64,000 nucleotides of DNA from Nocardioidaceae bacterium (GTDB lineage: Bacteria; Actinomycetota; Actinomycetes; Propionibacteriales; Nocardioidaceae), in NCBI GenBank assembly GCA_009780515.1, contig WQZX01000001.1, positions 1-64,000 on the forward strand, given 5' to 3'. This document shows positions 32,883 to 52,710 of this stretch, one piece after another. Position numbers and translations under genes: made by a program. Each line of letters starts with the position of its first letter. Positions within the stretch are counted from its first letter, which is position 1. The notes beneath the pieces are model-generated. The model ran no database searches and had not been told where the DNA came from. It worked only from the letters and a program-made list of their open reading frames with translations.

Positions 32883-33499
32883 GGCCGGGCGAACCACAGC
32901 GTGCGGTCGGTCCAGTCGCCGGGGCCGAGCCGACGGCCGCTGCACACGATGATCACGGCCTGGGGCGTGCCGCGCCGCCGGTCCCAGCCCGGGTAGCCGT
33001 TGCTCGCGAGGACCTGCTGCCGCGAGAACACCCGGTAGCACTGCGTCCGGCCGTGTCCGCTGACCACCAGTCGCGCGCCCGGGCGGAGGCGCGCCAGGAG
33101 CCGGTTGCCGAGCGCCGAGCCGTCCGGCCACGTGTGGGTGTTGAGCAGCAGCCGGCCGTGGGCGGCCCCTGCCTCGACCCCGCCGAGGTCGGTCGCCATC
33201 TCGGTCTTGTCCGTCTCGGGCAGGACGCCCATCACGCCCTCGGGCGTGCGGGGGACGGGTCGAACCCTGACCGACCGGCCGGCGAGGACCACCGAGGTCG
33301 GCACGAACGGCCGCCTCGGCGCGCTCCCGCAGGGTCCCGAGTCCGGATGGAGGGCCGGTGGCGCGCTCGGGCGGGCCCGCGCCGCCGGCGGCGTCGAGGC
33401 CGTGCCCCCGGGCCACTGCCACCAGCCGACCAGGGCGGCCACGACGACCAGCGCACCTGCGCCGAGCGTCCACCACCGCCGTCGCATCCCCCCGAGCAT
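32855..33499 (-). CDS. Class F sortase-like protein
   Basis: N-terminal TM, LLLNTHTWPDGSALGNRLL, QAVIIVCSGRRLGPGDWTDRTLWFARP (catalytic Cys and Arg). Confidence 0.72.
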   Translation of the reverse strand: MLGGMRRRWWTLGAGALVVVAALVGWWQWPGGTASTPPAARARPSAPPALHPDSGPCGSAPRRPFVPTSVVLAGRSVRVRPVPRTPEGVMGVLPETDKTEMATDLGGVEAGAAHGRLLLNTHTWPDGSALGNRLLARLRPGARLVVSGHGRTQCYRVFSRQQVLASNGYPGWDRRRGTPQAVIIVCSGRRLGPGDWTDRTLWFARPYLGGRPAA

Positions 33500-33563
33500 G
33501 GTCGCAGTCTGCTCCCAGCGGCCGACGCCGACAACTGTCGGCGGCGTGCGGGAGGATGGACGG

Positions 33564-38108
<4,545 letters not shown>

Positions 38109-38121
38109 CCGTGGATCCGGG

Positions 38122-38222
38122 GCCTGGTATTTCACTGGGAACCCAGTGAAATACCAGGCTTTGGAGGCAAATTTCCCCACAAGGCCCGGTAATTCACTGG
38201 GAACCCAGTGAATTACCGGGCC
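38122..38222. repeat. Paired palindromic repeat element, copy 1
   Basis: GCCTGGTATTTCACTGGG-AA-CCCAGTGAAATACCAGGC (38122-38159) and GGCCCGGTAATTCACTGGG-AA-CCCAGTGAATTACCGGGCC (38183-38222), both perfect, separated by TTTGGAGGCAAATTTCC...; fills the gap between convergent lhr and htpX. Confidence 0.9.
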
Positions 38223-38223
38223 C

Positions 38224-39105
38224 TCAACGGAGCCGCCCCGCCATCCCCTCCAACCGCGCGATCCGGTCGGCGGTCGGCGGGTGGGTGGAGAAGAGGCGAG
38301 AGACGTCCTTGGCGCGGAACGGGTTGGCGATCATCATGTGGGCCGCGTTCTGCAGCTGGGGCGTGGGCTGGAGCGGCGCCTGGGCGGTGCCCTGCTCGAG
38401 CTTGCGGAGGGCCGAGGCGAGGGCGAGCGGGTCGCCGGTGAGGCGCGAGCCGTCCTCGTCGGCGTCGTACTCACGCGTGCGGCTGATGGCCATCTGGATG
38501 ATGCCGGCCGCGAACGGCGCCAGCATCGCCATCACCAGCATGCCCAGCGGGTTGGACCGGTTGTCTCGCCCGCCGCCACCGCCGAAGAACGAGGCGAACA
38601 TCAGCATCTGGCCGATCGAGGAGATGATCCCCGCGACGGCCGCGGCGACCGAGCTGGTCAGGATGTCGCGGTTGTAGACGTGCATCAGCTCGTGGCCGAG
38701 GACGCCCCGCAGCTCCCGCTCGTCGAGCAGCGCGAGGATGCCCTCGGTGCAGCAGACGGCGGCGTGGTCGGGGTTTCGGCCGGTGGCGAACGCGTTCGGT
38801 GCCTGGGTCGGCGACACGAAGAGCGAGGGCATCGGCAGACCGGCGGTCGTGGTCAGCTCGTGGACGATGCGGTACATCGCCGGCTGCTGCTGCTCAGTCA
38901 CCGGGTAGGCGCGCATCGCGCGGATCGCGAGCTTGTCGGAGTTCCAGTAGCCGTACGCGGTGGTGCCGAGCCCGATCAGCGCGAAGATCCAGATGAACGC
39001 CATGTTGCCCGTCGATCCGGCGATCACGCCGCCGATCGCGAGCAGCAGGGCGAAGATCGCGGCGAACAGGCCGGCGGTCTTGAGGCCGTTGAAGTGACGA
39101 TGCAT
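38224..39105 (-). CDS. htpX: HtpX-like M48 zinc metalloprotease
   Basis: LRGVLGHELMHVYNRDI (HEXXH), two hydrophobic N-terminal helices. Confidence 0.93.
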   Translation of the reverse strand: MHRHFNGLKTAGLFAAIFALLLAIGGVIAGSTGNMAFIWIFALIGLGTTAYGYWNSDKLAIRAMRAYPVTEQQQPAMYRIVHELTTTAGLPMPSLFVSPTQAPNAFATGRNPDHAAVCCTEGILALLDERELRGVLGHELMHVYNRDILTSSVAAAVAGIISSIGQMLMFASFFGGGGGRDNRSNPLGMLVMAMLAPFAAGIIQMAISRTREYDADEDGSRLTGDPLALASALRKLEQGTAQAPLQPTPQLQNAAHMMIANPFRAKDVSRLFSTHPPTADRIARLEGMAGRLR

Positions 39106-50961: not shown

Positions 50962-51059
50962 CCGGCCGTATTTCACTGGGTTCCCAGTGAATTACCTGGC
51001 TTTGGAGCGAAGTTTTCCGGCAAAACCCGGTATTTCACTGGGAGCCCAGTGAAATACCG
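50962..51059. repeat. Paired palindromic repeat element, copy 2
   Basis: GTATTTCACTGGG-TT-CCCAGTGAATTAC and GGTATTTCACTGGG-AG-CCCAGTGAAATACC separated by TTTGGAGCGAAGTTTTCC; same layout as 38122-38222. Confidence 0.88.
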
Positions 51060-51071
51060 ACCCCGCCGGAC

Positions 51072-51076: not shown

Positions 51077-52710
51077 CTCTGATCCACCGGCCGCGGCGGG
51101 CTGCGTGAGCGTGGCGTAGAACGAGGTGCCCTCCTGAGCAGGGAAGATGTCGATTGCGACGTCGTCACCCAACCGCTCACGAGAGGCACCTCGTAAGTGA
51201 AACCTTCTCACACGATCCGGCCTGTCTTTGATGACCCGAATCTGGTGTCGGCAGCCGGTCTGGTCCCGGCTCTGCGGCTGGCCGGATCGGCCGGCTTCTA
51301 CGACCTCCTCGAGGACCTGACGGTGGCCTCGCCCAACGCCGGCGCGAAGGCGGCGTCGGTCATTGGCGGGATGCTCGCCGGCGCGGACTGCATCGATGAC
51401 CTCGACCTGCTGCGCCACGGCGGCATGGGCCGGTTGTTCGGTGGCGTGCGGGCGCCCTCGACGTTGGGTACGTTCCTGCGCTCCTTCACCCACGGCCACG
51501 TGCAGCAGCTCGACAAGATCAACGCCGGACTCCTTGCCGGCCTGGCGACACGGGTGCCGCAGTTGCTCGCCGGTGCCGACGCCGAGGGGATCGCGTTCCT
51601 CGATGTCGACGACACCGTCCGCGAGGTCCACGGCTACGCCAAGGAGGGGGCGGCGTTCGGCTACACCGGCCAGCGCGGCCTCAACGTCCAGTTGGCCACG
51701 ATCTCGACTCCGACCGCGGCACCGGTGATCGCCCGTGCCCGACTCCGCAAGGGCAACACCGCATCCGCGACGGGCGTCGGAAGGTTGTTGGCCCAAGCGA
51801 TCAAGACCGCCCGCGCAGCGGGCGTCACCGGGCGGATCATGTGCCGCGCGGACTCGGCCTACTACGGCCACGCCTTCGTCGGCACCGCGCTGCGACACAA
51901 GACGTGGTTCTCGGTCACCGCCCGGATGACCCCGTCGGTGACCGTGGCGATCGCCAGCATCGAGGCGGGTGCGTGGACCGCGATCGCCTACCCGAACGCC
52001 GTCTACGACCAGGCCGAGCAACGCTGGGTCTCCGACGCCGAGGTCGCTGAGATTCCATTCACTGCGTTCACCGGCCGACGCAAGGCCGAGCACGTGCCCT
52101 GTCGCCTGGTCGTGCGCCGGGTCAAGCGGCTCCAGCCGCTGGCATCCGACGGCACCGAGCAGGGCGAACTGTTCGCCACCTACCGCCACCACGCCTTCAT
52201 CACCAACAGCACCCTGGGGCTGGTCGAGGCCGATCAGCGTCATCGCGATCACGCCCTGGTCGAGCAGGTCATCGCTGAGCTCAAGGACGGTCCGCTCGCG
52301 CACCTACCCAGCGGAAAGTATGCCGCGAACGCCGCCTGGCTCGCGCACGCCGTGATCGCGTTCAACATCGCCCGCGCCAGCGCGGTGGCCGCCTGCATGC
52401 GCACCGTCCGCTGGGCAACCCTGCGCAGGCGCATCATCAACATTCCCGGCCGGATCGCGACCACCGGCCGACGCCTCGTCGTGCACCTGCCATCGCACTG
52501 GCCCTGGTCAGGCGGCTGGGACCTGCTGTGGTCGACCGCGACCGGGCCACCCGCCGCCCTCACGACGTGACCACCCAGCCGCCAGGGACGCGACCGAGGA
52601 GCCGAAGTGGAGAAGCCGGCGCCGACCGGCGCGACAGCCACGCCCAAATCCCGAACCCCGCACCGAATCGCCGAAATCACCGCCTACGAATCAACCGTGG
52701 TGGATCTGGG
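51077..52710 (+). mobile_element. Complete IS1380-family insertion sequence (1634 bp)
   Basis: Encodes an IS1380-type transposase; terminal CTCTGATCCACC / reverse complement CCCAGATCCACC (10/12); CTCAG duplication on both sides. Confidence 0.88.
51197..52570 (+). CDS. IS1380-family transposase
   Basis: DDE transposase features: GIAFLDVDDTVREVHGYAKEGAAFGYTGQRGLNVQLATI, RADSAYYGHAFV, HHAFITNSTLGLVEADQRHRDHALVEQVIAELKDGPLAHLPSGKYAANAAWL. Confidence 0.93.
   Translation: MKPSHTIRPVFDDPNLVSAAGLVPALRLAGSAGFYDLLEDLTVASPNAGAKAASVIGGMLAGADCIDDLDLLRHGGMGRLFGGVRAPSTLGTFLRSFTHGHVQQLDKINAGLLAGLATRVPQLLAGADAEGIAFLDVDDTVREVHGYAKEGAAFGYTGQRGLNVQLATISTPTAAPVIARARLRKGNTASATGVGRLLAQAIKTARAAGVTGRIMCRADSAYYGHAFVGTALRHKTWFSVTARMTPSVTVAIASIEAGAWTAIAYPNAVYDQAEQRWVSDAEVAEIPFTAFTGRRKAEHVPCRLVVRRVKRLQPLASDGTEQGELFATYRHHAFITNSTLGLVEADQRHRDHALVEQVIAELKDGPLAHLPSGKYAANAAWLAHAVIAFNIARASAVAACMRTVRWATLRRRIINIPGRIATTGRRLVVHLPSHWPWSGGWDLLWSTATGPPAALTT

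Follow-up and report, generated by a model that had tools for sequence, protein, structure and literature searches.

REP elements are among the commonest repeats in bacterial genomes, and the Y1 RAYTs are, to our knowledge, the only dedicated enzymes linked to them. In the RAYT/REP pattern an orthologous gene keeps its place whilst the repeats flanking it change and yet stay palindromic (PMC2817692), and some REP classes, those tagged with CGTC, stand without a known partner (PMC3733652). Inverted repeats are also the target of AbiEi, which binds 23-bp inverted repeats through its winged helix-turn-helix (wHTH) and bends DNA (PMC7319586). Here we propose, at a probability of roughly 0.7, that a palindromic element between an lhr-type and an htpX-type gene belongs to a REP/RAYT-like partnership whose protein is unrelated to RAYTs, the element being a gene-less copy of a repeat family that has a cognate gene.

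The element lies in the window, that is, the whole stretch of 64,000 nucleotides that was analysed, which comes from the draft genome, 3.68 Mb in 152 contigs, of a Nocardioidaceae actinobacterium of Nocardioides/Marmoricola type. Its parts (outer palindromes P, inner palindrome M), its neighbours and a second copy are as follows.

33105..38108, plus strand: lhr-type helicase gene; 33105 is a putative start, and the stop ends at 38108, 14 bp ahead of the element
38122..38222, unstranded: whole P-M-P element in the lhr/htpX gap, about 101 bp
38122..38159, unstranded: outer palindrome P1, arms 38122-38139/38142-38159 of 18 bp, 2-nt centre at 38140/38141, TATTT/AAATA type
38158..38185, unstranded: inner imperfect palindrome M, centre 38171/38172 (AAATTT), 31 bp to each P centre
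38183..38222, unstranded: outer palindrome P2, arms 38183-38201/38204-38222 of 19 bp, 2-nt centre at 38202/38203, TAATT/AATTA type
38224..39105, minus strand: htpX-type protease gene, whose stop codon (38224-38226) begins 2 bp past the element
50963..51063, unstranded: second P-M-P copy, cores 50972-50991 and 51034-51053, M centre near 51012/51013

These coordinates agree with the earlier note on the two perfect palindromes, with their 18- and 19-bp arms and 2-nt centres, on the borders relative to the lhr and htpX stops, and on a diverged second copy of the same layout near 50962, whose cores are 62 bp apart, exactly as in the lhr/htpX copy. The spacer that the note had called non-palindromic is in fact the imperfect palindrome M, in which about 71% of possible pairs are formed across 14 own-genome copies, and its centre lies exactly midway between both outer P centres, giving a P-M-P layout in 31-bp steps. 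The core, TTCACTGGGNNCCCAGTGAA, occurs four times in the window, where shuffling would lead one to expect 0.01. Most own-genome copies combine one TATTT-type P with one TAATT-type P, so that the unit lacks simple symmetry. An Rfam search at the element returned chance microRNA hairpin matches only, all below threshold; beyond the second copy, a sub-threshold match to the Ms_IGR-7 sRNA (51082-51194, minus strand; 37.3 bits vs a cut-off of 45) sits just upstream of a transposase gene.

The two genes at the first locus are convergent here, and in the relatives examined they share a strand, with lhr upstream of htpX; no insertion boundary can be read at lhr-htpX because of this difference in gene order, and a search for an empty site there found none, the relatives being diverged and lhr-htpX synteny not being conserved. 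Several relatives carry half-elements of other repeat classes just past the htpX stop (L275, L276, L279, L284).

That we are dealing with a repeat family and not a one-off, as the earlier note held, is borne out by a genome-wide count of 34 exact cores, with none for a reversed-pattern control, so that the family extends far beyond two copies. A whole-element search found about 19 places in the own genome, most of them matching on both strands, with cores mostly 62 bp apart and two pairs 84-85 bp apart. Context was analysed for 17 places of the window's family: all are extragenic, as are all 27 analysed elements of three own-genome families, and the association with gene 3' ends is strong: 16 of the 17 adjoin one, usually 0-16 bp past the stop codon, the sole exception being the copy at 50963-51063, which stands between two gene 5' ends. 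Across the GTDB collection, the exact pattern is confined to Marmoricola/Nocardioidaceae MAGs; allowing up to two mismatches, it is present in 18 of 220 same-genus genomes, in up to 65 copies, the commonest variant core there being TTCACCGGGnnCCCGGTGAA, with its change present in both arms, and the 62-bp core spacing is found again in several of these genomes. Plasmids, phages and viral contigs yielded neither a copy of the repeat nor a close relative of the protein described below, which is consistent with long-term chromosomal residence.

In four species, palindromes of this family stand 1.16-1.21 kb apart (1,158-1,206 bp), and each such pair encloses one gene of one family.

L045:2488-3426: family gene in the own genome (contig C144), between P-M and M-P halves
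L070/L106: family gene in G200, between two repeat copies
L107:1361-2311, minus strand: family gene in G202, between two repeat copies
L108:1138-2070: family gene in G210, between two repeat copies

The family gene is the single gene recognised between the palindromes of L045 and L106-L108, with no AbiEii (DUF1814) toxin gene recognised there, and in gene-bearing units it splits a P-M/M-P unit. A fifth repeat pair (G193), 1.8 kb apart, encloses unrelated genes and looks like two independent copies. Of the genomes rich in cores, some but not all yielded a gene flanked by that core. In G202 a tandem P-M-P-M-P array in 62-bp steps adjoins the gene (L107:1197-1340) and resembles a BIME-like expansion. 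Many gene-bearing units, amongst them the right flank of L207 and other class I flanks (the classes are defined below), hold an extra half-copy of M, of AGTTTCGTCGTCC type, inside M on the side facing the gene; this extra half-M is missing from solo P-M-P units.

The linkage is not peculiar to one repeat. The own genome encodes three further paralogues on contigs C3, C25 and C78, each flanked left and right by a repeat peculiar to it: for C3 a 95-bp nested inverted repeat with copies 96% identical, for C25 TTTCACCGGCCGGCCGGTGAAA palindromes and for C78 a 114-bp repeat. A solo-copy search limited to the own genome turned up further copies of the C3 and C25 repeats that stand elsewhere without a gene, and two of the gene-less C25-type sites are pairs 62 bp apart. 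Members of the gene family occur in 136 of 150 same-genus genomes, and when 450 bp on each side of 60 genus genes were compared, left and right flanks shared a repeat (match above 45 bits) in 55 of the 60, as against 1 of 119 control windows shifted by 2.3 kb; perfect palindromes with arms of at least 10 occurred in both flanks of 25 of the 60 genes and in 0 of the 119 shifted windows. A matching repeat pair is absent from the other five genes, four of which form one clade on the gene tree; this repeat-less clade (L157, L158, L161, L167) sits on a long branch and is possibly domesticated. Beyond the genus the distribution of the family is more scattered (23 of 197 other genomes at E<=1e-20), and more than half of 28 distant homologues from other actinobacterial families have flank repeats, as seen in 600-bp flanks without a shifted control. 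Judged from sequence, then, the link between repeat and gene is a real and widespread partnership.

Repeat and gene also vary together. The repeats were sorted into classes Ia, Ib and II by eye, on their sequence and ahead of tree building; these classes change only six times on the gene tree against a shuffled mean of 30, and none of 200 shuffles was as low. The family gene occupies the same thiolase/SDR gap in 15 species and, where perfect palindromes stand on both sides of it, the two sides match each other whilst the species differ. Depending on the species, the units in that gap are of class I or of class II (L192, L193 and L196 vs L152 and others), which suggests a hot spot or replacement. 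The geometry is fixed: in 36 of 37 class I flanks the centres of P and M lie 31.0 bp apart, though the sequences of both P and M vary widely. A constant helical phase of this kind is easier to reconcile with a protein that recognises double-stranded DNA than with a role at the RNA level alone. RNA-type covariation amongst the own copies did not rise above shuffles, because these copies are too alike (87.6% of cells paired vs 87.2% when shuffled; score 61/500; only two A/T pairs above shuffles).

The protein, about 313 aa long, combines an AbiEi-like DNA-binding half with a C-terminal half bearing PD-(D/E)XK-like conserved residues. The PADLOC models for AbiEi align with residues 2-173, and the N-terminus matches Pfam AbiEi_4, a domain present in 23 of 24 members. 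Nine residues show at least 98% conservation across 66 proteins (E204, D237, E248, D250, K254, E272, K273, R275 and E276), making up the near-invariant C-terminal motif E204, D237, E248-F-D250-G, K254, E272-K273, R275-E276, a pattern that we take to resemble DUF559/Vsr-type PD-(D/E)XK nucleases. DUF559 itself gave a weak match to 2 of 24 members (E 0.0064), a PDB search gave one short, weak match to Bax1, and an AlphaFold model built from a single sequence, without an alignment, reached a pLDDT of 37.5. On the strength of the motif and the weak matches we regard the C-terminal half as nuclease-like, possibly of PD-(D/E)XK type, with E204, D237, E248, D250 and K254 as putative catalytic residues.

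How might such a partnership work? In the reading that we favour, the lhr/htpX element would be a gene-less, non-autonomous copy, and its cognate gene would be the one on contig C144, between P-M and M-P halves. The AbiEi-type winged-HTH protein would bind the double-stranded form of its own palindromes, in which P and M sites lie 31 bp, or about three helical turns, apart; since AbiEi binds inverted repeats through its winged HTH and bends DNA (PMC7319586), binding of the protein's own P and/or M through its N-terminal half is the most economical reading. Cutting or nicking at these palindromes would then, on rare occasions, cause a P-M-P unit to be copied into an extragenic site, most often one right behind a stop codon; cleavage by the C-terminal half and mobilisation of the units, which we likewise infer, have less support than binding.

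Could the palindromes instead be operators, immobile sites at which the AbiEi-type protein binds to regulate its own gene or many genes? AbiEi and Rv2827c do autoregulate through inverted repeats upstream of their own operons (PMC7319586), and a spacing of whole helical turns would suit such a role. However, the repeats lie downstream of the gene as well, only one of the 17 own-genome places stands between two gene 5' ends whilst the rest are at 3' ends, whole similar units of 100 bp recur and not mere half-sites, and the conserved nuclease-like half would be left without an explanation; we consider this unlikely. Placement just past stop codons, convergent gaps included, together with strong hairpins on both strands (z of -12.0 and -10.0 for the lhr/htpX copy), could point to transcription terminators that work in both directions, or to stabilisers of 3' ends, which ordinary selection or gene conversion had spread. 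Yet a T-tract terminator was looked for and none was found, and neither the lineage-specific, near-identical 20-bp cores beside unrelated genes nor the constant 31/62-bp spacing and the linkage to one gene family are what this would lead one to expect, so that we hold it to be quite improbable as the primary explanation; the copies may nonetheless have a secondary role at transcript ends.

Two further alternatives involve mobile DNA. A homing-type selfish gene, whose nuclease cuts P-M-P sites and copies its own gene into them, would account for the nuclease-like protein and for the way in which the gene splits a P-M/M-P unit; but in the own genome just one gene accompanies the window's family, with its roughly 19 sites, so the presumed targets have not been colonised by it, and we give this very little credence. 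Least probable of all, in our judgement, is that the repeats are MITEs of a conventional DDE insertion sequence resident in the genome. A DDE_Tnp_1_4 transposase gene does start 133 bp past the second copy (window 51197-52570), but by inspection its IS-end sequence is unlike P or M, target-site duplications are absent from element ends (mean direct repeat 2.2 bp vs 1.7 bp for mismatched pairs, 14 copies), and across the phylum the repeats track the other gene family. At the end of contig C144 of the own genome, next to its P, stands IS-end-like sequence of a similar kind, and ISs may insert near these repeats.

If the partnership of palindromic repeats with an AbiEi-type protein is as we propose, the REP-type lifestyle has evolved more than once, this being a second, separately evolved REP-type system, and an AbiEi-type regulator has been recruited into a mobile-element-like role. 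It would also give a function to the abundant actinobacterial annotation 'AbiEi antitoxin', which is probably misleading, and it supplies cognate protein/DNA pairs from dozens of species, with a fixed 31-bp geometry, usable for binding and cleavage tests. Whether it defines an actinobacteria-wide, HUH-independent class, in which an AbiEi-like, PD-(D/E)XK-like protein recognises, maintains and copies its own three-palindrome repeats, is to our minds an evenly balanced question. We would call the partnership categorically new, with the caution that this rests on the unrelated protein and on finding no prior description in the open-access literature searched, subscription papers and preprints being outside its scope.

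Set against known systems, the protein shares with DUF559/Vsr-like PD-(D/E)XK nucleases the conserved C-terminal pattern E...D...ExDG..K...EKxRED and weak DUF559 matches, although the similarity of this half lies below confident homology. With the AbiE type IV toxin-antitoxin system and its antitoxin AbiEi/Rv2827c (PMC7319586) it has in common the N-terminal AbiEi_4 domain, AbiEi being a binder of inverted repeats, but here no toxin gene is recognised between the palindromes, an extra C-terminal nuclease-like half is present, and the repeats stand on both sides of the gene and are dispersed through the genome. CGTC-tagged REPs (PMC3733652) are likewise palindromic repeats without a Y1 transposase partner; they carry another sequence tag, and no linked gene has been described for them. 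As for REP/BIME elements, to which the earlier note had likened the element, the resemblance stands in so far as the family consists of paired palindromes scattered through extragenic DNA at gene 3' ends, whereas actual REP/RAYT membership can be rejected: the own genome gave no match to Y1_Tnp (PF01797) at E<=1, and so no RAYT-like transposase, in a search that was positive in 10 of 14 control genomes; a GTAG/GTGG head next to the palindromes is absent by inspection of aligned P-M-P copies; and the linked protein is unrelated. In REPtrons, the pairings of REP/REPIN with RAYT (PMC2817692, PMC3116915), the protein is a Y1 HUH transposase and not an AbiEi-HTH, nuclease-like one, the REP is a single imperfect palindrome with a head where we find three evenly spaced (31 bp), headless palindromes, and the copy number is higher than the tens seen here. 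What the two share are dispersed extragenic palindromes, often paired; one linked gene with a repeat on both sides, here in four species for the window's repeat and for 55 of 60 genes genus-wide; and a repeat that co-varies with gene lineage, the gene holding its place whilst the repeats at its flanks change.
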